Below are positions 15,106 to 38,889 of a DNA stretch of 38,889 nucleotides, one piece after another. Numbering within the stretch: position 1 is the first letter of the stretch; each line of letters begins with the position of its first letter. The notes under the pieces were generated by a model. It worked only from the letters and a program-made list of their open reading frames with translations. It had not been told where the DNA came from and searched no databases. The DNA lies in assembly GCA_030613025.1 (NCBI GenBank), contig JAUWMT010000026.1:1-38889 (forward strand). The letters run 5' to 3'. Made by a program: the position numbers and the translations under genes. Source of the DNA: Candidatus Cloacimonadota bacterium (GTDB lineage Bacteria > Cloacimonadota > Cloacimonadia > JGIOTU-2).

Positions 15106-16028
15106 CAGCACCTCTCTGCGACTCGTAATTTTGCACTTCGGGCACGCGAATTTTCCTTGATCTCTTCTTCGGTCGGAATGATGGGTTTTTTTGTGATGAT
15201 GTTCAATCTTCTCTCTTTTCCGCACACACATCGAGGCAAATATGCCGGACATACACATTCAAGATTCTCATATTTGAAAAATTGTTTTACGATCCGGTCC
15301 TCAAGAGAGTGATAAGAAATAACTGCAATCCTTCCGCCTTTTTTTAAGACTTCAACCGAAGATTTTAATCCCTTTTCCAGCGCTTCCAACTCCTTGTTTA
15401 CTTCAATTCGAAGTGCCTGAAAAATTCTTGATAATGTTTTGAATGCTCTATCTTTAGGAATCATATTCTCGATAATTTCTCTAAGTTGTTTTGTTGTTTC
15501 GATCTTTTTATTTTTTCTGGACTTCAATATTGCATTGCTGATGCGTTTCCAAAATCTGTCTTCGCTGTAATCATGTAGAACCTGTTCGAGTTTCTCTTTC
15601 GGATAAAAATTCACGATCTCAAATGCTGTGAGCTTGCCGTTGCTGCGGTTCATTCTCATATCGAGCACATCATCCTGAGTATAGCTGAATCCGCGTTGCT
15701 GGTCGATCTGATGAGACGAGAAACCAAGATCGAAGAGAATTCCATCAATTTTGTTAATCCTGTTAAGTGCCAGTGCAGATGAAAGATAAGAGAAATTTTT
15801 ATTCACAAATATAATTCGATCCGAATATTTTGATAAGCGTTTCTGAGCGAAATCGATCGCATCTTTATCATGGTCAAAAGCAATGACATGAATGTCATTT
15901 TCCTGTTCGAACATTGCCTCAGTGTGACCTCCACCTCCAAGAGTGGCATCAACGTATATTCCTCCTTTTTTTATTTGAAGGAATTCAATTGATCGGTCTT
16001 TAAGAACAGGAATATGAAAGGTTTTCAT
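15105..16028 (-). CDS. rsmH: 16S rRNA (cytosine-N4) methyltransferase RsmH (MraW)
   Basis: A SAM-dependent methyltransferase for C1402 of 16S rRNA. The 307 residues have the SAM motif YVDATLGGGGHTEAMF (about 27-42), DGILFDLGFSSHQIDQ and RGFSYTQDDVLDMRMN, all strong family signatures, plus SYHSLEDRIVKQFF in the C-terminal part. Its ATG overlaps the preceding mraZ-like stop as ATGA. This is the conserved third position of dcw clusters. Confidence 0.97.
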   Translation of the reverse strand: MKTFHIPVLKDRSIEFLQIKKGGIYVDATLGGGGHTEAMFEQENDIHVIAFDHDKDAIDFAQKRLSKYSDRIIFVNKNFSYLSSALALNRINKIDGILFDLGFSSHQIDQQRGFSYTQDDVLDMRMNRSNGKLTAFEIVNFYPKEKLEQVLHDYSEDRFWKRISNAILKSRKNKKIETTKQLREIIENMIPKDRAFKTLSRIFQALRIEVNKELEALEKGLKSSVEVLKKGGRIAVISYHSLEDRIVKQFFKYENLECVCPAYLPRCVCGKERRLNIITKKPIIPTEEEIKENSRARSAKLRVAERC

Positions 16029-19615: not shown

Positions 19616-19724
19616 CAGATAATCCCCCCGCAACGCAGGGATCATTACAAGAAGCTGGACGAGAAGTTGATTTTGCCAACCGTATTATGTCTCAATCCCC
19701 CTGCAACGCAGGGGTCATTACAAG
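19616..19724 (-). CRISPR. Orphan two-repeat CRISPR (array 1 repeat family)
   Basis: Two 36-nt repeats of the array 1 family flank one 37-nt spacer (19652-19688). The left repeat (19616-19651) is degenerate at its outer end and the right one (19689-19724) is intact, starting GTCTCAATCCCCCTGC and ending TCATTACAAG. The reverse complement ends in ATTGAGAC, the usual type III 5' handle, so it would be read leftward from the leader copy on its right. It sits beyond the 3' end of the cmr operon, 9 kb from the main array. Confidence 0.85.
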
Positions 19725-20060
19725 ACCATCATTTTTAACCCCCACCACTAAAGCATTTGCGGGGAGGTTTTGGCGAACCTCTGAAATTTTATATCAATTT
19801 TGATCAATTTTAAGGGGGTTCGCCAAATTTTCTGTAACTCCTTGATATGGCGTAAGTTACAGGAACTTGCAAAAATCCTGCGTAACTCATTGATATAAAG
19901 GAAGTTAAGTGCACTTTTTCAAATTTCTCTACTTGTTTAAAAACACCAAAAAGAGGTTCGCCACGATTTTCTCGAAACTACATGAGATATTATAAGCTAT
20001 TTGGCTAAATGGATGTAAATTACAGCACTCTATGTGTTTACGAAAAGAACAATATTCTTT
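19725..20060 (-). promoter_or_regulatory. CRISPR leader copy of the orphan array
   Basis: Closely similar over about 250 bases to the leader at 29929: CACTAAAGCATTTGCGGGG, an inverted pair GGCGAACC (19772-19779) and GGTTCGCC (19817-19824), two copies of a GTAACTCnTTGATATnnnG motif, AAACACCAAAAA and a third GGTTCGCC (19955-19962). It ends with a CAGCACTCTATG word. The position to the right of the repeats matches a leader for leftward transcription. Whether it is still active is unknown. Confidence 0.75.
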
Positions 20061-20150: not shown

Positions 20151-21029
20151 TCAATCTCTTCCTTCTATAAGGTAACCCCGGGGCAAGCCCCGAGGAATTC
20201 TTTCGATTAAAGCTCCATAACCGACATTTGTTTTGGCACCGAGCCCCAGATCGAGTATAATTTTCTTAAAAAGTTCTTCCTTAACATCTGCTGTAATTAT
20301 TTTATTAAATTCGTTTAGCCTAAATTGAAATCTGAATTTCACATCAGGTAGGATTTTCAGTAATTTTATAGGCTTTGGGTTTTTTAAAGGATCTTTATGA
20401 GGTGTAATATAATCCTCTGCAAGAAAGATTTCTTTCTCTTTCTTTGATTTTATAGGGAAAGCTTCAAAGAAAATATCACGCTGATAAACCGGAATTCGTT
20501 TTCCATTCTTATCGATTCCATCAAAGATATTTCGTTCCAGGTCTTCAATATTCGGAATACAATCTATCTGTAATTTAGAAAGAATACTCTCGAGATATTC
20601 AACTTTGCTTTTTTTAATCTCTGTTCGATTTTCTTTTAGCGGAAAAACACTACGCAGCATTCCCTTGATGGATGAACCGGGAATTACAGGGATTCCTGTA
20701 GTATAATCGAAATGAAATCCAATCTTAAATTCGTTCTCAAATCCTGCTTCATGAATATAACCACTTCCAATCAGTAATCCGGGATAAATCGTAGTAAGCT
20801 CAAAGGATTGGTTATGAACCTTGCATGACAATAAGTGATCATAATCCGGAAGTTTGGCATTAATCAGTTCTTCATTAATCTCAGAATTCATTTTGCAATC
20901 TTTTCTACCACTCATAATACTTTGTAAAGATCGAATATCAATTTCAATTTCCGGCAAAGGTTGATTTTTCGTTTTATTGTCTTTCCAATAGTATTGCTTA
21001 TAGAATAAATATCCTAAATTTTCACTCAT
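20151..21029 (-). CDS. cmr6: Type III-B RAMP protein Cmr6 (Cas7 family)
   Basis: The terminal Cas7-like subunit of the Cmr effector. The 292 residues contain the RAMP signature PVIPGSSIKGMLRSVFP (about 133-149) and the glycine-rich loop LGLGAKTNVGYGAL (about 265-278). It is the last gene of the operon and overlaps cmr5 by 8 bases. The last 14 residues, RGLPRGYLIEGRD, are encoded across a palindrome (20176-20195), so the C-terminus seems to have been rewritten by a REP-like sequence. Confidence 0.9.
   Translation of the reverse strand: MSENLGYLFYKQYYWKDNKTKNQPLPEIEIDIRSLQSIMSGRKDCKMNSEINEELINAKLPDYDHLLSCKVHNQSFELTTIYPGLLIGSGYIHEAGFENEFKIGFHFDYTTGIPVIPGSSIKGMLRSVFPLKENRTEIKKSKVEYLESILSKLQIDCIPNIEDLERNIFDGIDKNGKRIPVYQRDIFFEAFPIKSKKEKEIFLAEDYITPHKDPLKNPKPIKLLKILPDVKFRFQFRLNEFNKIITADVKEELFKKIILDLGLGAKTNVGYGALIERIPRGLPRGYLIEGRD
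20176..20195. repeat. REP-like palindrome inside the cmr6 end
   Basis: CCCCGGGGC and GCCCCGAGG arms with an AA loop and one mismatch. Its GC content is far above the surrounding sequence and it lies in the reading frame of cmr6. Confidence 0.6.
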
Positions 21030-21420
21030 CAGAATCCCCCGATTTAACTAATTCGAAAGTCCTGATTGCTAGTTTTAAGGCAGTAGCAGCAATAATTATT
21101 CTGCTTTTCAATATTCTGATTGCTGTTTTATCAGTATAGTGATTTGTGTTATTGATGACGTATTGAAAGAGAGTTTCTTTAGTTATTGTTTCATCTTTCG
21201 TGATAATATCCAAAATTGATTTCATTACTTGTTTTCTTTCATTCTTTGATTTTTCTCTTTCATTGGAAACGATTGCCGGCAATAGACCTGATTGTATAAT
21301 TGCGGCACCGAAAGAAGATATGTAACCGTTACATTCTTTTGTTATTTTTCCATCCTTTGTTGCCAGATTCACCTTTGCTGCTTCTAAAGCTAATGGTATG
21401 AACTCATCTATTTTTTTCAT
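21022..21420 (-). CDS. cmr5: Type III-B small subunit Cmr5 (Cas11 family)
   Basis: A 132-residue, mostly helical protein located between cmr4 and cmr6, the standard place of Cmr5, which forms the inner small-subunit filament along the crRNA-target duplex. SSFGAAIIQSGLLPAIVSNE is close to the usual Cmr5 segment around the conserved serine-phenylalanine and glycine-leucine residues. The start lies 10 bases after cmr4. Confidence 0.88.
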   Translation of the reverse strand: MKKIDEFIPLALEAAKVNLATKDGKITKECNGYISSFGAAIIQSGLLPAIVSNEREKSKNERKQVMKSILDIITKDETITKETLFQYVINNTNHYTDKTAIRILKSRIIIAATALKLAIRTFELVKSGDSDE

Positions 21421-21430
21421 GATTTCCTCA

Positions 21431-22267
21431 CTATATTAACTTTGTAAATTGAGTGTAACCATATCCTATCGTGGCATTAGCTCCGATCTGAACCAGGTTA
21501 TCTTTCCAAACTTCATCAAACTCTGCACTATGCTTTTCACCCAATCCAATAATGCAATAAAATACTGATTCCCGTGGAACTATTTGCTCATACCATAAAT
21601 TTTTACTTTCTCCGTTTTCCAGTTGATTACGGGCAATAACAGGGAGTTCCTCCGATACATTCTTGAAATCTTCTTCATTGAATACAACCAGACCACTTCC
21701 GAATACGCTTTTAATTCTTTTTCTTTGTGCATTAGTTAGTTCAGCATCTTCCAGGTATTCGGCAATATGTTCTTCAATAAATACGGAACCTAAATTATCA
21801 AGAGTACGTGGTTTGAAATTAGTTTCATGTTCAGAGATTTTATTTATGCTTTCAATTAGCATTTCTAAAGCTGATTTGTCATCAGGTTTCAGTTGCAGAT
21901 TAAAGTCTACAAGCCTGTCTGACATTTGCTTAATTAAAGAAACCGTAGTAGCTCTGAAAAATGGTTTACTATTACTACGCACCGGCAGTACCAATAGGTT
22001 TGCATCAAAAAAGCGATATAATCCCTGTTTAAGTTTTGCTTTATCCCGCTCTTTGGGCTCGGATCCAAAAACGTCAGGTACAATTGCTGGATTTTTATGT
22101 TTGAAAAACTCTCGCAAAGCTCCTTTTAAACTTGAAGAATGGACTTGCGGATAGTTAGTAACAACATCTCTTTGAACTAAATTATCAATTACTCCAAAAG
22201 TTGTGTCACCGCTTCCCACGTGCATGTTGGTCTTTGTTCTAATTTCATAAAGCGAATAAATCATCAA
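21431..22267 (-). CDS. cmr4: Type III-B backbone RAMP Cmr4 (Cas7, target RNA nuclease)
   Basis: The backbone Cas7 subunit, which cuts target RNA every six bases in characterised complexes. The 278 residues show MHVGSGDTTFGVIDNLVQRD near the N-terminus, where Asp28 matches the position of the catalytic aspartate in Cmr4, the RAMP motif PQVHSSSLKGALREFF and the C-terminal glycine loop IGANATIGYGYTQF. The cleavage residue seems intact, so RNA cutting is expected. Confidence 0.92.
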   Translation of the reverse strand: MMIYSLYEIRTKTNMHVGSGDTTFGVIDNLVQRDVVTNYPQVHSSSLKGALREFFKHKNPAIVPDVFGSEPKERDKAKLKQGLYRFFDANLLVLPVRSNSKPFFRATTVSLIKQMSDRLVDFNLQLKPDDKSALEMLIESINKISEHETNFKPRTLDNLGSVFIEEHIAEYLEDAELTNAQRKRIKSVFGSGLVVFNEEDFKNVSEELPVIARNQLENGESKNLWYEQIVPRESVFYCIIGLGEKHSAEFDEVWKDNLVQIGANATIGYGYTQFTKLI

Positions 22268-22272
22268 TCCTC

Positions 22273-23268
22273 CTATAGATAATAATTATATCCAATTTTT
22301 TTTAAGCTTTTATCTGAATCTAACATTTCTATCACTTTGCTTTTATCACTGGGATAGAATACTGAACCACGTGAAATAAATGTATGTTTACTGCTCTTAC
22401 TTTTTCTTTCGAATCTATATTTTTTTGAACTTAATCTGATATTTCTAAAAGTGATAGTATCCGTCAGTGCAAAATTACAAAAATCGTATATTGTATTTTT
22501 TACATAAGCATCACTTAAAAGAATTATCTTATTATCTTCGTGCAAATCACTGAATTGATTATTCAAATTTCCATCAAATTTATTAACCTTCATAAAGAAA
22601 GAAGAATTATTTGCTCCCATATATATGGTGTTGTTATCCAGTTCGAACTCAATCTCGATAATCAGTCCAAAGGCGAAATCACTCTGTAAATTATAGTAGC
22701 TCTGTTTGAAGAAACTCTCTTTATCATCTCCATCTCTTTCTTTAGTAATGCCAATCTTAATATGTTCTGTAAAAATATCTTTGAAACTTTTATCTTCTCC
22801 TTTATTTGAAACAAAACCTGAGTCACAACCATTCTTTGAATTATAGTTTGAAAAAAACGGTATCGTGTCTTTCTTATTATTTACAAAAGCTCTACCCGGT
22901 TCCGGACTATAAATGAGATTTCTATCCTTTGGTGCAGAGATATAAAATGATTTATTATTCTGCACAAGAAAAATCGGTGATAATGATTTGATAACTTTAA
23001 AATCCACCGGCTCCCCAACTCGGAAGCTTTGTTCACCAATCAAACCATTAATTTTTTCTACATCGATGTCTGTATATTCATTGAAGTTTTCTTTATAAAC
23101 ACCGTCTCGAATTAATACTTCTTTTCTTAGTGTACCCAGAATTGTGGTTTGTTGGGGAAAGGGATTTGATTTGGCAAAATAATTTGCTTCTTCCCCTTCT
23201 CCGAAAGTTTGCTCACCTCCGAAAAAATAAGAAGCAACCGGTTTGAAAGTAATTAAAAATGTGGACAT
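22273..23268 (-). CDS. cmr3: Type III-B protein Cmr3 (Cas5 family)
   Basis: The Cas5-like subunit that caps the crRNA 5' handle. The 331 residues open with TFLITFKPVASYFFGGEQTFG, the usual Cmr3 start, followed by NPFPQQTTILGTLRKEVL, and end with a ISRGSVFYPSD segment also seen in the family. Its ATG overlaps the cas10 stop as TAATG. The identification rests on motif and position. Confidence 0.88.
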   Translation of the reverse strand: MSTFLITFKPVASYFFGGEQTFGEGEEANYFAKSNPFPQQTTILGTLRKEVLIRDGVYKENFNEYTDIDVEKINGLIGEQSFRVGEPVDFKVIKSLSPIFLVQNNKSFYISAPKDRNLIYSPEPGRAFVNNKKDTIPFFSNYNSKNGCDSGFVSNKGEDKSFKDIFTEHIKIGITKERDGDDKESFFKQSYYNLQSDFAFGLIIEIEFELDNNTIYMGANNSSFFMKVNKFDGNLNNQFSDLHEDNKIILLSDAYVKNTIYDFCNFALTDTITFRNIRLSSKKYRFERKSKSSKHTFISRGSVFYPSDKSKVIEMLDSDKSLKKIGYNYYL

Positions 23269-24842
23269 TAGTTTCCTCCCTGTAAGAAATTCAACAATCG
23301 CAAAACACTACAAATGTATTCAATTCGCAGATTGTTTTCCTTATTGTTCTTGTCATAATATTTGCTTACTATCATTTCATAAGTGAAATCGCTAATCTTA
23401 TATATATATTGCTCAGTATCTGTATGAATTTCTTCATTAAAATTATTTTTGAAAAAATTCTCTAATCTCGTTTTGTCAGAGCCAATATTCATAAGCATAG
23501 TTTTATGCTGTGATAATTTATATATTAAGGAATTAATCGTTTTCTCTGGTAAGTTAACTGCATTAGTTCCACACAATATATTTTTAATATCCGAATATTC
23601 CCTACTATCGAAGCAGAAACAACCTTCATAGGATTTTCCGCTATGTTTCAGAACTCTGAATGCGAAGGAATTTTTCTTCTTTTTGTCAGGCTCTGAATCC
23701 TTTCGCTCTTTCATACTTTTGGCTAAATGCAAAAGATCGTTTGATATATCCAATGCTTCATTCATCGGATATTTATAGTAGCTGATGGAAAGCCCAAATG
23801 AAAGAGTTGGTTTTACTTTTCTTTTCCCCAGTTTTTCCTTTATTAATTCTTTGAAAATCTCCTTCAAATCATAAATAATCTGAATTACATTTTTGTTTTT
23901 ACTGACTATCGGTGCAAAGAAAAAAAGATCATCACCTCCAGCATAAATGGTGACACCTCCATTTTCTTTAATCTTCTCATTTGCTTTAATCGCAAATTCA
24001 TAAAGCACACTTGAAAGATTAAGGAAGTCTTTATTTTCGTTCAAATCCTCTATCGTTTTCCCCATACTATCTGCATCTGCACAAATAATGGCTATGTATT
24101 TATGATATTGTTTGAAATTTTTAAATTCTCTCTCAACATCATCATAAATTTTCGTGTCATCGTCGAATTTAAAAAAACTTTTCGGCAGATTCAATTCATG
24201 CATTGCTATTTCCGGAATCGAAGGAAAGGATAGCTTTTTATCAAAAGCATCTTTCATAATAAAAGAGTGATTTACATAATAAAAAAAATCAGCCAAAAAG
24301 TCACAGGTCTCTTTGGGAACGAATTTTTCTTGAAGTTCTAAAGAATCGAGATAGCTATTTACAATTTCGTTAATATCTTTATAGTCTTTTTTATTTTCAA
24401 TTTCACAAAAATATATTTTAAAATAATTTGATAGATAATTTGAAATTTCTTTTACATCAAGAGCATTGTAGGTAGTGCGTTTATCTTCAATATTGACTGT
24501 ATGGATTTGCAAATGTTCTTTTAACCTTCTTCGCATATGAAGAAGAATTTCGGAAGATATATCTTGCAGAATGTTTTCGATAACCTCTTGTAAATGGTCG
24601 AAATCTCCTTCTGAAGCCTCGAAGATCATTCTATCCGGGAAAATGCCGATTTCATACTTTTTAGTCTCAATCCCATCACTGTCGAAATGCGGAAGAATGA
24701 ATTCTCTTTTTTTAAATTCGATGATAATCTTCTTCATTATATAAGAGAAAATATAACTCGCAGCAAAGAGTTCTCTGGTCTTTCTGGCTTTCATTATGGT
24801 TTTGATAATTGGACCGATTGTTACTCCGATGTATTTAGGCAT
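23268..24842 (-). CDS. cas10: Cas10 (Cmr2), GGDD cyclase without HD domain
   Basis: The large subunit of the type III complex. The 524 residues begin directly with the first palm, GVTIGPIIKTIMKARKTREL (6-25), with no N-terminal HD nuclease region. A second palm carries CADADSMGKTIEDL (254-267) and the cyclase motif YAGGDDLFFF (300-309, GGDD at 302-305). So DNA cutting is not expected, while messenger synthesis is. In studied CorA-linked III-B systems the messenger is SAM-AMP. The gene follows cmr1 by one base. Confidence 0.95.
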   Translation of the reverse strand: MPKYIGVTIGPIIKTIMKARKTRELFAASYIFSYIMKKIIIEFKKREFILPHFDSDGIETKKYEIGIFPDRMIFEASEGDFDHLQEVIENILQDISSEILLHMRRRLKEHLQIHTVNIEDKRTTYNALDVKEISNYLSNYFKIYFCEIENKKDYKDINEIVNSYLDSLELQEKFVPKETCDFLADFFYYVNHSFIMKDAFDKKLSFPSIPEIAMHELNLPKSFFKFDDDTKIYDDVEREFKNFKQYHKYIAIICADADSMGKTIEDLNENKDFLNLSSVLYEFAIKANEKIKENGGVTIYAGGDDLFFFAPIVSKNKNVIQIIYDLKEIFKELIKEKLGKRKVKPTLSFGLSISYYKYPMNEALDISNDLLHLAKSMKERKDSEPDKKKKNSFAFRVLKHSGKSYEGCFCFDSREYSDIKNILCGTNAVNLPEKTINSLIYKLSQHKTMLMNIGSDKTRLENFFKNNFNEEIHTDTEQYIYKISDFTYEMIVSKYYDKNNKENNLRIEYICSVLRLLNFLQGGN

Positions 24843-24843
24843 T

Positions 24844-26010
24844 TTAGACTCCTATGTTATTTCTAATTTGTGTATAGACATTTTTCAATATTTTAAATTG
24901 TTGAGTAGTTCTAAAAGAACTATCAACGTGATTATCAAGGTTTACTCTTACAAAAGCAAAATCCAAGAAATCGTTTAAATCAAAATTATCGGGAAATGAA
25001 AGCTTTAAATCTCCATGATTATTATTCATAATATGAAATGTTTTACCGTAGATATTTTCAAGCTCATTATTTGTAATATTGATTTCATAACCATTAGTAT
25101 ATTTAATTGGCTTAATAAATACCGGTGATTTTATTCTATCAATATCTTCATTTTGTTTTGTGATATTTGATCTGTAAGAATGCCAGCTCTCATTAGACGA
25201 TAATCCCAATATGTCTTTCATGAGCTTTTTTTCCTCTGAAGAATAATTTAATATATCACTTCTTTGATAATTATTTTGTTGTTTTGTTAAATCATTACTG
25301 AAATATTCTTCTTTTATACTTTTTTTATCCCATTGAATACCCATATGCTTTGAATATAAAAACATTAAAGACTTAAAATAGAAAACCGTTCCCTGCCTAC
25401 CCCTAACTTCATTTAGTCCGGATCGAAGTGACTTATAAAGTAATTTAATAACATAAAATAATTGTTTATATTCTTCTATAGTATTTATTTGTTGATTCCG
25501 GATTTCTTCGACAAACCAATATTTCAGTCTTTTCTTAACGTATAATTCATCATTTTCATCAATATAAAATGATCCGAAACCTTTCGACTGCCTTGTTCCA
25601 AAATTTGTGTTCATAAAGAAATCACAGATGTTTTGTTTTATCATTTCTAATATCGAAGTATTGAATGAAGCAAAAAACAATTCGATGCCCTCAGACATTA
25701 TGAACTTTTTGGGATTCTCTTCATTTTCTGCTCCCATATTACCAAAAAAAAGAGGAAAGTTTCTTCTCTTTTTTTGCCCATTCCTATAATATGTTTCTTC
25801 AATATCAAAAACGATATTACTTGAAGATCTTACTGAAATTTTGTAATCAAGACTGTTCTTACTGGTAGTATGTAAACTTGGATTAATATTAATTAGATAT
25901 TTATCCAATTTCGGTTTCAGTTCCGAAGCACGCAATGTTGCTCCCTTTTGGTCATGCTGAAAATGAATGATTGGTGTATGTTGTTTTAGTTTAATTTTGA
26001 GCTTTGGCAT
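24844..26010 (-). CDS. cmr1: Type III-B RAMP protein Cmr1 (Cas7 family)
   Basis: A Cas7-family subunit that binds the 3' part of the crRNA. The 388 residues start with LKIKLKQHTPIIHFQ and include RASELKPKLDKYLI, both typical of this Cmr1 branch, and the glycine-rich loop NFGTRQSKGFGSFYI (about 136-150). The start has AGGAG overlapping the corA stop, so it is coupled to that gene. The first-subunit place in the cmr part of the operon fits. Confidence 0.9.
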   Translation of the reverse strand: MPKLKIKLKQHTPIIHFQHDQKGATLRASELKPKLDKYLININPSLHTTSKNSLDYKISVRSSSNIVFDIEETYYRNGQKKRRNFPLFFGNMGAENEENPKKFIMSEGIELFFASFNTSILEMIKQNICDFFMNTNFGTRQSKGFGSFYIDENDELYVKKRLKYWFVEEIRNQQINTIEEYKQLFYVIKLLYKSLRSGLNEVRGRQGTVFYFKSLMFLYSKHMGIQWDKKSIKEEYFSNDLTKQQNNYQRSDILNYSSEEKKLMKDILGLSSNESWHSYRSNITKQNEDIDRIKSPVFIKPIKYTNGYEINITNNELENIYGKTFHIMNNNHGDLKLSFPDNFDLNDFLDFAFVRVNLDNHVDSSFRTTQQFKILKNVYTQIRNNIGV

Positions 26011-26018
26011 AAGATCTC

Positions 26019-27623
26019 CTAAACATTAAATAAATTAAAAATTGCATTAATTATTGATTTGATAATATCAAATGTAGGTGTAAATTTTATTAAAAAGATA
26101 AGAAAAATAAAGATAAATGGAGTTATTAACCATTTCCACCATTTTGATTTTTTTATTATCAATAGTGTAGTAAGTGACATAAGAGAAATAGTTGGAATTA
26201 ATAATAAAAACAATGCTTTATTATTTGAAAGTGCAGGTTTTAAAAAATAGCTAATATTCATACCTAATAAACCTGCCATTAAAGTTGCAGGTAAAAATAA
26301 TGCTCCGAGATAAAAAAGTCTATTCATTGCTCTTGTTTCACTTTTCTCATTTTCAGCTTCTACATATTCAAAAAGCTCTTCGATATCTTTTCGTAGATCA
26401 TTTTTTTGCTTTTCAAGATCCATTTGTTCAAGACCTATTTTATACATTTCTATACCTTGTTCTTGTGGTGTGATCTCTGTAAACCAGATATCATTAATAA
26501 ACTTAATGTATTTTACTCTAAGTTCTTTAATTTCATTTCTTTGATTCGTATTATTCAATTTCTTTGCTATCTCAGAAGAATCACCGGCAAACTTGATAAG
26601 AATAGCTCGAATGATCAACAATATTTGAGCCATATCGCAATAATGTCTATTTACATGCTCAAGCAAATAATCAGGGACTTTAGAATTAAAAAGAGCTACT
26701 AAACTATAGCGAGTAATACCCCAAATAGTTCCCTCATTTATCCAGCGATGATATGTGCATTTCTTCAATAATTCAAGTTTTTGAATTTCTGACTGACAGG
26801 TTAAGCTCTTTCCATCCATAAAGCAGTATTGATACCATTTATTGATTGAATCCATTTCGATTTCAGATTCATAAATTATAGATTCCCTGCTTTTTGATAA
26901 GTATTTTGGTAAAGTATTTTGAAGCGGTTTGCATACGATATCATTTATAAAATAAGAAACAACAAACATTCTGTCATCTAAAATGTGCTCGATTTTAATT
27001 CCTTTAAGTAGTTTTGAAATGTAAGAAGCATAAGTTATTTTTTGTAGAGTATGAAAATTTGAGAGATCCTGATATTTGTTGAAATTTTCTTTAGCAAATT
27101 CTTCTCCATTAAAATTAATAGTAATATTATCTGGTACAAACGATCCTTTAGAAGCAATAATAGGTAAAAATTGCGGATAGATACGACGAGCAAAATCATT
27201 AATTATCAGGATATCCTCAATATCTTTTTTATCATGATTTTCAAGATGAAATGTTAATATTCCGATAGAGAATTCTTCAAGAATTAATAATTCAATTCCA
27301 TTATTAGGAATAATTAATTCAAATTTATCATTCCCTTTTTTTTCTTTATTTTTTACTTCTAAGTAAAATTTTCCTGTTTGAAATTTTCTATGATATTTTG
27401 AGATTATAGGATTCTTTTGTTCAGTATCAGGGAATAATAATTTTTGAACGTAAGGATAGAAATAATTGTATTCATTGTAATCCATATCACTTTTTATTGA
27501 AAATCCGTTTTTTAACCATTCTTCATCTTTACTAATTTTTTTCACGCATTGTTCAATATTTTTTATAATAAACGGAAACATAAAAATATGCTTTGATATT
27601 GGATACTTTTTCTCTTGTCCCAT
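26019..27623 (-). CDS. CorA-like membrane effector of the type III-B system
   Basis: A 534-residue protein with a large soluble N-terminal part (1-430) and a C-terminal CorA pore region: a long helix ending in RAMNRLFYLGALFLPATLMA, the GMN selectivity motif (GMNISYF, 454-460), and helices at about 470-490 and 497-515. Ordinary CorA has two membrane helices; a third is suggested here. CorA genes linked to cmr operons act as membrane effectors gated by SAM-AMP in the studied Bacteroides case. The start lies 10 bases after the lipoprotein, with the AGG of its ribosome binding site fused to the lipoprotein stop. A degrading partner (NrN or SAM-AMP lyase) is not encoded nearby. Confidence 0.88.
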   Translation of the reverse strand: MGQEKKYPISKHIFMFPFIIKNIEQCVKKISKDEEWLKNGFSIKSDMDYNEYNYFYPYVQKLLFPDTEQKNPIISKYHRKFQTGKFYLEVKNKEKKGNDKFELIIPNNGIELLILEEFSIGILTFHLENHDKKDIEDILIINDFARRIYPQFLPIIASKGSFVPDNITINFNGEEFAKENFNKYQDLSNFHTLQKITYASYISKLLKGIKIEHILDDRMFVVSYFINDIVCKPLQNTLPKYLSKSRESIIYESEIEMDSINKWYQYCFMDGKSLTCQSEIQKLELLKKCTYHRWINEGTIWGITRYSLVALFNSKVPDYLLEHVNRHYCDMAQILLIIRAILIKFAGDSSEIAKKLNNTNQRNEIKELRVKYIKFINDIWFTEITPQEQGIEMYKIGLEQMDLEKQKNDLRKDIEELFEYVEAENEKSETRAMNRLFYLGALFLPATLMAGLLGMNISYFLKPALSNNKALFLLLIPTISLMSLTTLLIIKKSKWWKWLITPFIFIFLIFLIKFTPTFDIIKSIINAIFNLFNV

Positions 27624-28724: not shown

Positions 28725-28760
28725 CAGCTAATCCCCCTGCAACGCAGGGGTCATTTCTAC
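28725..28760 (-). CRISPR. Single degenerate repeat, block A of array 1
   Basis: One 36-nt repeat with an altered outer end (GCAGCTAAT in place of GTCTCAAT) and an intact core and TCATTTCTAC end. It is followed on the right by a shortened leader copy. It is probably the oldest remnant of the region. Confidence 0.75.
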
Positions 28761-29019
28761 TGTTACATTTTTAACCCGCACCAGCAAATGGTTTGTGGGG
28801 AGGTTTTGGCGAATTGCGATAAAGCGTTCCTTCGTTGGAGGTTACAGCACTCTATACATACAAAAAGAACTGTGTGAGACTGGATTCCCGATGGGGCTCG
28901 GGAATGACATTCTGTTTTTGTTTTAGTGCTATTTCAAATATGCATGCCTTGCACCAGCTCGCTGGGGCATCCCGATAAAGCAATGTCAAAATCTTTGATT
29001 TTGCAACGGTGCTTACTTC
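28761..29019. repeat. Shortened leader copy plus REP-like element (block A)
   Basis: It starts like the leader (ACCCGCACCAGCAAATGG, GGGGAGGTTTTGGCGA), then skips about 200 bases of leader and resumes at GGTTACAGCACTCTAT and AAAAAGAAC. A REP-like palindrome (28876-28910), a second hairpin CCAGCTCGCTGG, and ATGTCAAAATC...TTACTTCGGGG follow. The whole is repeated at 29281-29530 with minor differences. Confidence 0.75.
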
Positions 29020-29280
29020 GGGGCAATACCCCCGCAACGCAGGGGTCATTACAAGTTATCTTAGGATTGAAACGCCTGGGGCAACTGGAATAGAGTCTCA
29101 ATCCCCCTGCAACGCAGGGGTCATTACAAGTTTGAGATGCTCTCAAATGTATGTGAAGCAGAAGAGATAATTGTGTCTCAATCCCCCTGCAACGCAGGGG
29201 TCATTTCTACTATAGCATTTTCGGAATTTATCTTTCTTATTAATGTCTCAATACCCCCGCAACGCAGGGGTCATTTCTAC
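29020..29280 (-). CRISPR. CRISPR array 1, block B (4 repeats, 3 spacers)
   Basis: Repeats at 29020, 29095, 29175 and 29245 (36 nt each) with spacers of 39, 44 and 34 nt. The first repeat begins GGGGCAAT instead of GTCTCAAT, so its outer five bases belong to the preceding REP-like element. The left two end TCATTACAAG like the orphan array; the right two end TCATTTCTAC like block C. In two of them the core reads CCCCTGC..GCAGGGG, a perfect 7-bp stem. Orientation is leftward by the ATTGAGAC handle. Confidence 0.93.
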
Positions 29281-29530
29281 CGTAAGCATTTTAGCCCGCA
29301 CCACTAAAGCATTTGCGGGGAGGTTTTGGCGAATTGCGAGAAAGCGTTCCTTCGTTGGAGGTTACAGCACTCTATACATACAAAAAGAACTGTGTGAGAC
29401 TGGATTCCCGATGGGGCTCGGGAATGACATGCTTTTCATACTATTACTAACATGCAATGCCTTGCTTCGCTTGCGAAGCATCCCGATCAAGCAATGTCAA
29501 AATCTGTGATTTTGTAACAGTGCTTACTTC
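29281..29530. repeat. Shortened leader copy plus REP-like element (block B)
   Basis: Same layout as block A: leader start CGTAAGCATTTTAGCCCGCA, jump to AGCGTTCCTTCGTTGGAGG, GTTACAGCACTCTAT, REP-like palindrome (29396-29430), a different second hairpin GCTTCGCTTGCGAAGC and TTACTTCGGGG joined to the first repeat of block C. The leader start is identical to that of the complete leader at 29929 for about 20 bases. Confidence 0.78.
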
Positions 29531-29928
29531 GGGGCAATACCCCCGCAACGCAGGGGTCATTTCTACACAATAAATAAACAGATACAAGGAGGTATCATGA
29601 AAGTCTCAATACCCCCGCAACGCAGGGGTCATTTCTACATCTTTACTATCAAATATTAAGGAGGTACCATAATGAGTCTCAATACCCCCGCAACGCAGGG
29701 GTCATTTCTACATTTATCGTTATGTGAAAAACGGTAGAGGAAATTAATTTGTCTCAATACCCCCGCAACGCAGGGGTCATTTCTACAGTGCGGTGAGGTA
29801 AAATGGCAACTGGTTTGCAATTGTCTCAATACCCCCGCAACGCAGGGGTCATTTCTACACATCAATGTCTCGTCCGCTCGGAAGTTCTGAACGTCTCAAT
29901 ACCCCCGCAACGCAGGGGTCATTTCTAC
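29531..29928 (-). CRISPR. CRISPR array 1, block C (6 repeats, 5 spacers, leader-proximal)
   Basis: Repeats of 36 nt at 29531, 29603, 29676, 29751, 29823 and 29893; spacers of 36, 37, 39, 36 and 34 nt. The repeat on the transcribed strand begins GTAGAAATGACCCC and ends GGGGTATTGAGAC, with an internal stem (ACCCCTGC/GCGGGGGT containing a U-G pair) and the 8-nt ATTGAGAC handle typical of type III. It lies next to the complete leader and the adaptation genes, so it holds the newest spacers. Spacers 29567-29602, 29639-29675 and 29787-29822 carry Shine-Dalgarno plus ATG on the plus strand. Confidence 0.97.
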
Positions 29929-30300
29929 CGTAAGCATTTTAGCCCGCACCAGTAAAGCATTTGCGGGGAGGTTTTCACGAACCTCTAAAAATTTGGGTCA
30001 AAATGGGTCATTTTTAAGGGGGTTCGTAAAATTTTCTGTAACTCCTTGATATAACGTAAGTTACAGGAGATTTAAAAAATCTATCGTAACTCGTTGATAT
30101 AAAGGAAGTTAAGCCCACTTTTTCTAGTTTTTCCATTTCTCTAAAAACACCAAAAATAGGTTCGTTGGAAAATTGTGATTTTTACTTTAGGTTTTTCAGC
30201 TTATTCACCAACTGAGTGGAAGTTACGACACTCTATGTTGCAGAAAAAGAACGATCCCCCCGCTCTTTTTGTTAAGCAAGGGTCATTATTAGGTTCTTAT
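29929..30300 (-). promoter_or_regulatory. Complete CRISPR leader of array 1
   Basis: It lies between the newest repeat and cas2. Visible elements from the array outward: CCCGCA...TGCGGG stem, an inverted pair ACGAACC (29977-29983) and GGTTCGT (30021-30027), two GTAACTCnTTGATAT motifs (about 30038 and 30085; the first has inverted ends CTGTAACT/AGTTACAG), a third GGTTCGT (30159-30165) and a CGACACTCTATG word. It should hold the array promoter and the integration signals. The copy at 19725 has matching changes in all three GGTTCG elements. Confidence 0.8.
30254..30292 (-). repeat. Degenerate repeat-like sequence at the outer leader end
   Basis: ATCCCCCCGC and GCAAGGGTCATTATTAG match the two halves of the array 1 repeat, separated by about 12 extra T-rich bases. 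It may be a decayed repeat from an older array beyond the present leader. Confidence 0.4.
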
Positions 30301-30364: not shown

Positions 30365-30625
30365 TTAATAAATCCATACTTCTGGTTTTATCTCTCCAAT
30401 GAATAGTGCCCTACGCGAGCAGTTTTTACATATGGAAAAACAATGTATGGTACCATCCTTGTTATTTATCTTTGAAAGAACCTTTAGTATCTTTTGTAAT
30501 TTTATTTTATTTGTGTCAACAAAAAATACAGATTTTTGAATGCGAATGGCATTCTTTTCCAGATACTTTGCAATTTTTCTTCTTTTTGTGTCACTCTTAA
30601 TGTCGTACGCAATGATATATTTCAT
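30365..30625 (-). CDS. cas2: CRISPR adaptation protein Cas2
   Basis: An 86-residue ferredoxin-like protein that bridges Cas1 dimers in the spacer integrase. It opens with KYIIAYDIKSDTKRRKIAKYL, the usual first strand with the aspartate, followed by IQKSVFFVDTNKIKL and the end EVWIY. The start overlaps the upstream Cas6-RT-Cas1 stop as ATGA. It is followed by the leader. Confidence 0.96.
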   Translation of the reverse strand: MKYIIAYDIKSDTKRRKIAKYLEKNAIRIQKSVFFVDTNKIKLQKILKVLSKINNKDGTIHCFSICKNCSRRALFIGEIKPEVWIY

Positions 30626-33282
30626 CTAGCTATAGTAAATGGAGTATAAGGTATCCCGAGATAAAGACAAACTTTGAATCTATGCACCATGAAGTCCATA
30701 AGTTCACCATAAGTGAATTTTTTCGATTCGAAAGTCATAGTAGTGTTCATTGTTCTCTCAAACCTGTGGATAATTGCTCGCATCACATTTTGTTTTATTA
30801 CTGTTTTTGTAAATTTATTATTGTATGATCTTTCCTCAAAATCGTTAATTTTAACCTGTTTCAATCTAATCAATGCAATAACATTTCTTTCTGCAAGAAA
30901 ACGAAAACTTTCCATAATATCGGATGCGAGTGCGCGATGATTTCCTCGCTCGGCATGGAAAATACCCACATAAGCATTTATTCCAGAGCTTAAGAAGATT
31001 TCAACGAATCTTCGGTATATCAGTGTATAAAACACTGAAAGCATCGCATTGATCGGTCCTTCCGGGGGATGATACACTCTTTTTTTAAATGGGAATGGAT
31101 GAACAATTTTCCTGAAATGTTTATAATATTCTTTTGTAGCTACCCCTTCATAGCCACGAACCGAATCGGCATTATCTGCATTTTCAATTTCTGCAATATA
31201 ATCCTTTAATACCTTTGAATTAATACCATTGCGCTTTAGTATGTATATCTGGTTATTTAGCTTTGATTTTGCTAATTCCTTAATATATTTCTCAGACCAT
31301 ATTTCCCAATCTATATATGCATCATTGAATAATTCATAAACAGTTTTAGTTTTCCCGAAATTATTAAATCCCCCAATGAGTTTTCCAAGGGCAGTAAGAA
31401 ACACTACCCCCTTCTTTAAATATAAGGCCCTTGTAATAATTCCTGCACTAATTCGTGCTTTTCCAAGAATCACTATACGATTTACCTCATTCCAGTTAAG
31501 CTTTGAAACTGTTCCATCATGTTTTTGTATGACTATAAAATTTCCCTGGGTTCGTGCATACTGAATACCAAAAGTAATATATAATGGTTTTTGTTCCAAG
31601 GATTTATAAAGAAATACAGGTAACCAATCTTGCATATCAGCAATCTTAGATGTTCTGGTCTTTTCCTGAAAAAAACCTCTCTTAGATATTTTAGATCCCA
31701 ACCAGGAAATCTCATCATCAGGAGTGAATATGCTTATTTTATCTTCATTTAAATCCAGCTCTGTTGATTTTAATCTTTCTTCCAATAAGATTTTCAGATC
31801 GATGTTGGGATCTTTCGCAAATAATATTATATCATCAGCATATCTGATCATCCTTACCTTGGGTGCCATTTTTTGCATTGCTGTGTCAAAAGAAGCGAGG
31901 AAGAAGTTGGAAAGAATTGGTGAAATTGTATTACCCTGATATAAGTAATTTTTCGTGAAATAGGAAGTTATTATTTGAACAAGTCTACTTCCAGAAAAGA
32001 AAGACATGAGTAAAAGTTCTAAGTTTTGAATGATGATAGAATCGAAAAATCTCCGAATATCTGCCAAAAGACCTTGAGTAAAACCTTTTTTAAATTGAAA
32101 ATATACTGCTCTAATTGCTTTATGATAATCATATCCCTTTCTATAAGAATAGCAGTTATCAGCTAGTTGGTTATTAAGTGTTTCATGTAAATGGTCGTGT
32201 AAAACTTTTTGAACTATTTTATCAACTAGTGTGTTCATTATTATTTCACGATAAGAACCATCACTCTTTCTTTTCCTGAAAGACTTTATATCACCTATTT
32301 TATATAAACCTCCTATTATGGAATCCGATAACTTACTAACATAATTTTTATCAAGATACAGATCATTGGGAATTACTCCAAATGCTCCTCTTGTGTCATT
32401 AGGCATTCTCTTTATTACATTATGGATGTTCTCTTCTGAAAACAGGTAAGATATTACGCCTTTCCGTTCTGATATAACATTATTAAGGGAGTCTGATTGA
32501 ACAATTCTGTAAAATCCAAATCCAAAACTATTACTTTTTCCCAAACCACAATATTGTCCTGCTGCAAGCGTCTTCTTGATTGAATCAGGAAATGAACCAT
32601 CAAGTTCAAGACCACCCAGTATGCCACCAAGTGTTTTTTTATACGGAACATCAATCCAGAGGAAATTTTTCCGAATAATTCGTATCCCCTCAATATCTGC
32701 ATCCTTTATAACAATATCACTATTCTGTGCAATGGTCTTCAAAAAGTGTTTAATATCAAAGAAATATGGATCGTAATACACATGACTTGCCTCTTTATAT
32801 CCTTCGGGTCTTTTCAGACGCAGCGGACTGAGAAGAACAATCTTTATTGTTTGTGCATTCTTGAGAGACTGAACCTCTTTTTCTATTACTTCCTCGTTAA
32901 TAATCTCATATTCTGGATATTTCTTTGTGATGAGATTCTCAGCAGCGACAAGCTCTATTGTCTTGCCCGGGATCAAATGCTTATCGTGTAACTTCCATTC
33001 CTCTTTCAGTTTAAGGTCTTCAATACCTTTTTCTATTGCTCGCAGATTATGCTGATCAAAGCCCAAACATACATTTACAATTTCGTTTTGATAATACGTA
33101 TGACGCCCATTTTCAGCGGGGAGAACACAAATATGTTCATCAGCGAACTCGCCTTTTATGTGTTGACGAAAAATATTATTGAAAAGTGCATACCATTCCA
33201 CACCCGAATACAAATTCAGTCCGCGTATATTCCTCAGGACTTTGAATGAAAAGAGATACCAAACATTATACCTTATTTTCAA
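30622..33282 (-). CDS. cas1: Cas6-reverse transcriptase-Cas1 fusion
   Basis: One 886-residue protein with three parts. Cas6-like domain, about 1-265, ending in the RAMP glycine loop AGQYCGLGKSNSFGFGFYRI (241-260): crRNA maturation. Reverse transcriptase, about 290-570, with ADIRRFFD (catalytic Asp408), QGNTISPILSNFF (449-461) and the YADD box at 481-484: DNA synthesis on RNA. Cas1, about 580-886, with RGYEGVATKEYY (Glu712), GIFHAERGNH (His776) and ASDIMESFR (Glu791), the three metal ligands of the integrase. All three active sites look intact. Fusions of this type are known from RNA-acquiring type III systems. It is the only cas6 and cas1 seen here and may serve both CRISPR arrays. Confidence 0.96.
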   Translation of the reverse strand: MKIRYNVWYLFSFKVLRNIRGLNLYSGVEWYALFNNIFRQHIKGEFADEHICVLPAENGRHTYYQNEIVNVCLGFDQHNLRAIEKGIEDLKLKEEWKLHDKHLIPGKTIELVAAENLITKKYPEYEIINEEVIEKEVQSLKNAQTIKIVLLSPLRLKRPEGYKEASHVYYDPYFFDIKHFLKTIAQNSDIVIKDADIEGIRIIRKNFLWIDVPYKKTLGGILGGLELDGSFPDSIKKTLAAGQYCGLGKSNSFGFGFYRIVQSDSLNNVISERKGVISYLFSEENIHNVIKRMPNDTRGAFGVIPNDLYLDKNYVSKLSDSIIGGLYKIGDIKSFRKRKSDGSYREIIMNTLVDKIVQKVLHDHLHETLNNQLADNCYSYRKGYDYHKAIRAVYFQFKKGFTQGLLADIRRFFDSIIIQNLELLLMSFFSGSRLVQIITSYFTKNYLYQGNTISPILSNFFLASFDTAMQKMAPKVRMIRYADDIILFAKDPNIDLKILLEERLKSTELDLNEDKISIFTPDDEISWLGSKISKRGFFQEKTRTSKIADMQDWLPVFLYKSLEQKPLYITFGIQYARTQGNFIVIQKHDGTVSKLNWNEVNRIVILGKARISAGIITRALYLKKGVVFLTALGKLIGGFNNFGKTKTVYELFNDAYIDWEIWSEKYIKELAKSKLNNQIYILKRNGINSKVLKDYIAEIENADNADSVRGYEGVATKEYYKHFRKIVHPFPFKKRVYHPPEGPINAMLSVFYTLIYRRFVEIFLSSGINAYVGIFHAERGNHRALASDIMESFRFLAERNVIALIRLKQVKINDFEERSYNNKFTKTVIKQNVMRAIIHRFERTMNTTMTFESKKFTYGELMDFMVHRFKVCLYLGIPYTPFTIAR

Positions 33283-37981: not shown

Positions 37982-38889
37982 GGGACAATCCTTGATTTAA
38001 TGGAATCAGCTTAACAAACGAATTTTGATTAAGCAATTACCGTTGCCTCTGAATAGTTTCAATCCTTGATTTAATGGAATCAGCTTAACAAACTAAATCG
38101 AGCGATAGTAAAGGTGTTAGCGCATAAGAGTTTCAATCCTTGATTTAATGGAATCAGCTTAACAAACGATGTGAAACCTGATACTGAAATGATATTATGT
38201 TCGTAGTTTCAATCCTTGATTTAATGGAATCAGCTTAACAAACGCAGCAGAAACTTGAGAATGCTACGACACTCCTGCTGTTTCAATCCTTGATTTAATG
38301 GAATCAGCTTAACAAACTGAAATGACTGACATAGAGTGGCAATTAGCAAATTGGTTTCAATCCTTGATTTAATGGAATCAGCTTAACAAACAAATTGTAA
38401 CTAATATTAGAACCGAAGATGGAGAGTAGTTTCAATCCTTGATTTAATGGAATCAGCTTAACAAACACAAGAAAATTTTGTTGATATTTGATTGGCATTA
38501 AAGTTTCAATCCTTGATTTAATGGAATCAGCTTAACAAACTATGATGGCAGAGATCAGCAGGATATACAGGCAATGGTTTCAATCCTTGATTTAATGGAA
38601 TCAGCTAAACAAACAAATCTGTAGGATAATGATACGTTGAGCAATCCAGAAGTTTCAATCCTTGATTTAATGGAATCAGCTAAACAAACACGTGTAAATA
38701 AAGGTATTCCGAGAGAACAAGAACTGTTTCAATCCTTGATTTAATGGAATCAGCTAAACAAACTTACAAAACATGAATTGGTCTGCTGATCCTGAAGTAG
38801 GTTTCAATCCTTGATTTAATGGAATCAGCTAAACAAACTATTTAAACTTTGCTTTATTGAGTTCTTGTATCTTTGCGTTTCAATCCTTG
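37982..38889 (-). CRISPR. CRISPR array 2 (12 full repeats plus a cut one, runs off the window)
   Basis: Repeats of 38 nt at 37982 (degenerate outer end GGGAC), 38056, 38130, 38206, 38280, 38354, 38429, 38503, 38577, 38652, 38726 and 38801, and a truncated one at 38877; spacers are 36-38 nt. The repeat begins GTTTCAATCCTTGATTTAAT. The reverse complement ends GGATTGAAAC, so transcription should run leftward from a leader right of the window; the degenerate left repeat agrees with a trailer. The repeat has only a weak TGATT/AATCA stem. Repeats up to 38503 end CTTAACAAAC, and those at 38577, 38652, 38726 and 38801 end CTAAACAAAC. Confidence 0.97.

Follow-up and report, generated by a model that had tools for sequence, protein, structure and literature searches.

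Three of the five spacers in CRISPR array 1A, on the 38,889-nt contig of a "Candidatus Cloacimonadota" bacterium analysed here (the window), contain an SD sequence followed by a start codon on the strand with which the crRNA pairs. These three, and possibly all five, would be pieces of translation initiation regions, their crRNAs antisense to the mRNA. Such a spacer pattern is firm in a distantly related locus, the Cas6-RT-Cas1 array of a Pirellulaceae MAG, and suggestive in the window, and start-site sampling does not extend to RT-Cas1 systems in general. Sampling of mRNA start regions by a subset of Cas6-RT-Cas1 systems, including that of array 1A, is the best explanation for the observations as a whole, but is held tentatively, at a little below an even chance.

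Where natural RT-Cas1 spacers come from is an open question, since hardly any of them match a known sequence (PMC5513706). The signature within a spacer (SD and start codon, orientation, and motifs cut at the edges) identifies mRNA start regions without a protospacer match. No earlier report of natural spacers centred on start sites was found in the literature consulted, which includes several key papers in part only. A preference of an RT-Cas1 enzyme for start regions, if true, would matter for transcriptional recording tools based on RT-Cas1.

The type III-B locus and its arrays

Judged from its sequence, the locus encodes a complete type III-B system with an intact-looking Cas6-RT-Cas1 and Cas2. 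Genes for Cmr6, Cmr5, Cmr4, Cmr3, Cas10/Cmr2 and Cmr1 (20151 to 26010, minus strand) were identified by profile matches, with E values of 2e-36 for Cmr6, 5e-27 for Cmr5, 1e-42 for Cmr4, 2e-41 for Cmr2 and 2e-74 for Cmr1; the match to Cmr3 (9e-13) is under its NCBIfam cut-off and over that of Pfam. The adaptation module combines Cas6 (residues 150 to 257), RT (338 to 531) and Cas1 (567 to 840) domains in one protein of 886 aa (30622 to 33282, minus strand), accompanied by an 86-aa Cas2 (30365 to 30625, minus strand; PF09827, E = 2e-17), and the RT domain has the catalytic motif YADD (RYADDIILF). Between the arrays and cmr1 is a gene (26019 to 27623, minus strand; PADLOC CorA, E = 3e-107) for a CorA-like membrane protein of the kind found in type III loci, a probable second-messenger effector. 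CorA acts as such an effector in other type III-B loci.

Array 1A (29531 to 29928; six repeats and five spacers) is downstream of the Cas6-RT-Cas1 gene and co-directional with it. Its repeats (29531-29566, 29603-29638, 29676-29711, 29751-29786, 29823-29858 and 29893-29928) read GTAGAAATGACCCCTGCGTTGCGGGGGTATTGAGAC on the minus strand and terminate in ATTGAGAC, a type III 5' tag with the 8 nt ending in GAC/AAC that are expected of type III-B repeats. The tag and the co-direction with RT-Cas1 therefore place the crRNA on the minus strand, pairing with the plus strand, which upholds the original prediction that the array is read on the minus strand and that its crRNAs would be antisense to mRNA start regions.

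The spacers had also been described as leader proximal, and this holds insofar as 1A adjoins the full-length leader at 29929 to 30164 (minus strand), which is 84% identical to the leader of array 1C over 228 nt. Four leader copies are present (28725-29018, 29281-29530, 29929-30164 and 19725-19960), two full and two truncated after ~60 nt. Full length is limited to 1A and 1C; the leaders of array 1B and of an orphan repeat (28725) share approximately the first 60 nt only, and both then continue into one different sequence common to the pair. Array 1B (29020 to 29280, minus strand), with the truncated leader, has four repeats and three spacers (29056-29094, 29131-29174 and 29211-29244), and array 1C (19616 to 19724, minus strand) has two repeats, one spacer and a full leader reaching 19960. 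The window contains two repeat variants, starting in the crRNA sense with GTAGAAATGA or CTTGTAATGA. Array 2 (37982 to 38838, minus strand) has a different repeat and served as an internal control, with 11 complete spacers tested. The strand opposite its crRNA (38020 to 38800) is purine rich in 10 of the 11, and array 2 may therefore also serve an RNA-targeting effector.

Start-site spacers in array 1A and in a Pirellulaceae array

On the plus strand, spacer 29567-29602 contains AAGGAGG, 4 nt and ATG-AAA, the start codon lying close to the 3' end of the target strand (anti-SD duplex energy of −12.0 kcal/mol, compared with 0 for the opposite strand). Spacer 29639-29675 contains AAGGAGG, 7 nt and ATG (−13.4 and −1.3 kcal/mol, respectively), and spacer 29787-29822 contains GAGG, 4 nt and ATG GCA ACT GGT, encoding M A T G (−7.1 and 0 kcal/mol). 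All three start sites of the original prediction were thus confirmed, on the plus strand only, and we infer an origin in mRNA. The SD-like stretch and the ATG with an open frame that it noted in the other two spacers are likewise present, but their standing as start sites is a matter of compatibility. Spacer 29712-29750 has the SD-like AGAGGAAA near its 3' end with no ATG thereafter, as a cut-off start site might, and spacer 29859-29892, the newest and adjacent to the leader, has an ATG at position 7 followed by an open frame, with no internal SD. An SD-only and an ATG-only spacer are compatible with the partial start sites that start-centred sampling would give, which is a weak indication taken alone.

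A strict motif was defined as AGGAG, GGAGG, GAGGT or AAGGA followed by 3 to 10 nt and ATG, and its expected frequency was taken from 36-mers of the non-array DNA of each locus, multiplied by 2 to allow for sampling of the sense strand only. The motif is present in three of the five 1A spacers on the target strand and in none on the opposite strand. The probability is ~1e-4 for 1A under this sense-only expectation, 6e-4 for all nine RT-array spacers with the 1A repeat and 1.1e-4 for at least three of five at the strict rate elsewhere in RT-Cas1 arrays (30/1348, 2.2%), but all of these values overstate the surprise because the pattern was picked after the array had been viewed. Comparison with arrays 1B and 2 had been proposed as a check, and neither contains spacers with the strict motif (0/3 and 0/11), nor does array 1C (0/1); the excess of 1A over uniform sampling of sense mRNA was found.

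The strongest alternative is that 1A belongs to an ordinary type III spacer set, in which mRNA-antisense spacers include some gene starts, and is a chance cluster within it. With just five spacers and a pattern chosen post hoc such a cluster is conceivable, but the low probability persists against sense-only sampling and none of 1109 consecutive five-spacer runs in other RT-Cas1 arrays (the Pirellulaceae array excluded) contains three strict motifs. Furthermore, the Pirellulaceae array (L043) cannot be due to chance, and a chance cluster in 1A is on balance unlikely. Start-site sampling in the window itself, as judged from five spacers of one array, is nevertheless unproven.

The Pirellulaceae array belongs to a Cas6-RT-Cas1 fusion locus and has 47 spacers, of which 11 contain strict start sites on the target strand and three on the opposite strand (25 and 8, respectively, under a loose definition). 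The expected number is 0.3 (P = 6e-15; P = 6e-9 at the rate of other RT arrays), and the anti-SD energy score is 38% compared with an expected 6.1%. Approximately 36 of the 47 spacers, as judged by eye, fit centring on a start site. Partial motifs occupy the edges where start-centred sampling would place them, with four SD-only spacers at the 3' edge and five ATG-only spacers at the 5' edge; one start is GTG, and one start site is covered by two overlapping spacers. The spacers are far more A+T rich than the locus (47% versus 64% GC). Start sites are also in excess on the opposite strand, with the three strict motifs and an energy score of 10.6% against a background of 3.1%, pointing to acquisition rather than selection.

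For one spacer of this array (15412-15442), 31 of 31 positions match a site elsewhere in the same genome (L334, 8010-8040). The protospacer spans −26 to +5 of a chromosomal gene of 107 aa, with AAGGA 8 nt before the ATG; the gene product has a signal-peptide-like N terminus, and the neighbouring genes encode a trypsin/PDZ-like protease and an ABC-F ATPase. The crRNA would have the sequence of the mRNA itself and so be unable to target it. Selection for defence does not account for a spacer from a host start site in an orientation of no use, which indicates that acquisition itself visits start sites. The harmless orientation also suggests that self-targeting orientations are lost.

Two more specific sources were considered for the Pirellulaceae spacers and rejected. 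A sharp ribosome footprint is not apparent, as ATG positions are roughly uniform across the ~20-nt allowed range, and this spread argues against one fixed footprint. Transcript 5' ends were also rejected: inspection by eye showed neither a clear purine preference at the first base of the start-site spacers nor a clear −10 box ahead of the self protospacer.

Comparison with other arrays

RT-Cas1 loci were drawn from the phylum, GTDB contigs, plasmids, Planctomycetes, cyanobacteria and Chromatiales. RT and Cas1 profiles confirmed the fusion or adjacency for the phylum, GTDB-contig and plasmid loci, and loci added later rest on their protein match. Arrays were oriented by their 3' tag or by co-direction with RT-Cas1; 165 spacers from cyanobacterial arrays, the repeats of which have GTTT...AAAC at both ends, were left out because they could not be oriented. 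The purine skew of these arrays (L112, L267, L268 and L272) is 63:94, suggesting that the true reading direction of their repeats is the reverse of the one chosen by tag score.

Among 1183 spacers of the other oriented RT-Cas1 arrays (window and L043 excluded), 26 have the strict motif on the target strand and nine on the opposite strand, with ~18.5 expected on the target strand. Energy scores show no excess over expectation for sense sampling in either Cas6-RT-Cas1 (6.9% versus 7.2%) or RT-Cas1 (4.4% versus 7.0%) arrays, and no start-site enrichment was seen in cyanobacterial RT-Cas1 arrays. These values contradict the capture of transcript 5' ends as a general rule for RT-Cas1. The enrichment in related arrays on which the original prediction depended is strong in L043 alone, as the pooled arrays are close to uniform sense sampling, which also favors an ordinary spacer set with a chance cluster in 1A. 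A general bias was rejected once the oriented RT spacers had grown from 344 to 1183, the early pooled ratio of 27:6 being largely due to L043, and a rule specific to Cas6 fusions was rejected because 132 Chromatiales Cas6-RT-Cas1 spacers give 3:3. Capture of RNA with a start bias, as originally proposed, therefore fails in its general form and is restored in part by the extreme excess and the host-derived start-site spacer of L043.

Type III arrays lacking RT have 16 strict motifs on the target strand and two on the opposite strand among 258 spacers, with 4.5 expected, and an energy score hardly above expectation (9.7% versus 7.3%). As other RT arrays show no excess and these arrays do, the feature does not accompany RT in every case and also occurs without it. 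Strict target-strand motifs were seen in 3/70 (L194), 5/27 (L196) and 4/62 (L118) spacers of individual RT-less arrays, with few or none on the opposite strand; the sole RT in the L194 genome is located far from the array. Type I-like arrays of the same phylum have 10 on the target and four on the opposite strand among 460 spacers (9.0 expected), and type II arrays have none on either strand among 75. In a Chromatiales RT-Cas1 array (L309, 11689 to 12864), one start site (AACCGTTAAGGAGAGTAAAGATG) is covered by two spacers, one of which has a tandem duplication of AAGGAGAGTAAA, possibly through copying slippage or as a phage variant.

Orientation was also assessed by the purine richness characteristic of mRNA. 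In type III arrays, whether or not RT is present, the purine-rich strand is significantly more often the target strand (target:opposite of 142:76 for Cas6-RT-Cas1, 534:374 for RT-Cas1 and 147:101 for RT-less type III), and this excess is absent in type I-like (222:214) and type II arrays. The orientation effect, a preference for the mRNA strand, therefore belongs to type III generally. The same phenomenon, a coding-strand preference of type III spacers, has already been published by Vink et al. (2021; PMC8482600), who counted strands alone, and the term "start codon" does not occur there. A strand preference that is general with and without RT again accords with an ordinary spacer set.

Possible routes of spacer acquisition

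Spacer acquisition from RNA is reported for the type III-B Cas6-RT-Cas1 of Marinomonas mediterranea, the mechanism of which is described in PMC11014452, and that locus shares with the window the fusion, Cas2, the adjoining type III-B effector and the RT active-site motif. By analogy, the Cas6-RT-Cas1 and Cas2 of the window may integrate fragments of RNA, and we infer RNA as the spacer source in the window and in L043 alike. In the subset of Cas6-RT-Cas1 systems that clearly includes L043 and probably the window, the regions surrounding start codons would be the main source of these fragments, probably because mRNA there is A/U rich, has little structure and is released or shielded near the initiating ribosome. 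Integration would occur in both orientations, with a bias; fragments antisense to host mRNAs would be lost as self-harmful, as the host-derived spacer in harmless orientation supports, and those antisense to foreign mRNAs would be kept and used by Cmr. A bolder version, in which some Cas6-RT-Cas1 integrases sample host and foreign translation initiation regions as their main spacer source, with arrays 1A and L043 as natural examples that record genes being translated, is doubtful.

The known RT-Cas1 systems differ from the window in part. Acquisition in M. mediterranea is reported to be free of strand bias at ordinary genes (PMC9048733), and a bias to start sites was not found in PMC11014452, whereas array 1A is sense biased and rich in start sites. 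For the RT-Cas1 type III-B system of Arthrospira platensis, the spacer source was likewise not identified, and the paper has no gene-start or strand analysis (PMC5513706).

Capture at gene 5' ends might alternatively be independent of RT and act on DNA, e.g., displaced coding-strand DNA near promoters, with selection of the mRNA-targeting orientation thereafter. The 16:2 excess in RT-less type III arrays and the remote RT of L194 are in its favor, as is the RT-less type III-A system of Streptococcus thermophilus, for which a review of its naive acquisition (PMC9048733, describing Zhang 2021) gives a similar bias to gene beginnings, with coding-strand spacers taken from 10 to 50 bp past the start codon. 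However, a bias downstream of the start would give coding-strand spacers rather than spacers centred on SD and ATG, both of which are contained in those of 1A, and the type I arrays of the same phylum show no excess. DNA-level capture is accordingly improbable. Retention bias, in which start regions are ribosome-accessible antisense targets and the best-protecting crRNAs are kept, would suit the target-strand excess in RT-less type III arrays but is very unlikely, as L043 retains start-site spacers, including one derived from its own chromosome, in an orientation that provides no protection.

Sampling of mRNA start regions by some Cas6-RT-Cas1 systems would predict protospacers at gene starts. 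No significant protospacer was found for any window spacer by blastn against phages and plasmids or in IMG/VR, the genome itself or relatives in the phylum; blastn of the L043 spacers against phages returned nothing significant, and exact-pattern scans of IMG/VR with window, L043 and L309 spacers gave zero matches. Mapping of spacers to their own chromosome covered the window and L043. Spacer 29787-29822 matches the start of the tail sheath gene of Clostridioides difficile phages phiCD27 and phiCD418 at 22 of 23 nt, which is not significant alone (E = 6). The match spans −11 to +12 of the gene, in the same register (M A T G), and hints at a tail sheath gene start as the possible source of this spacer.
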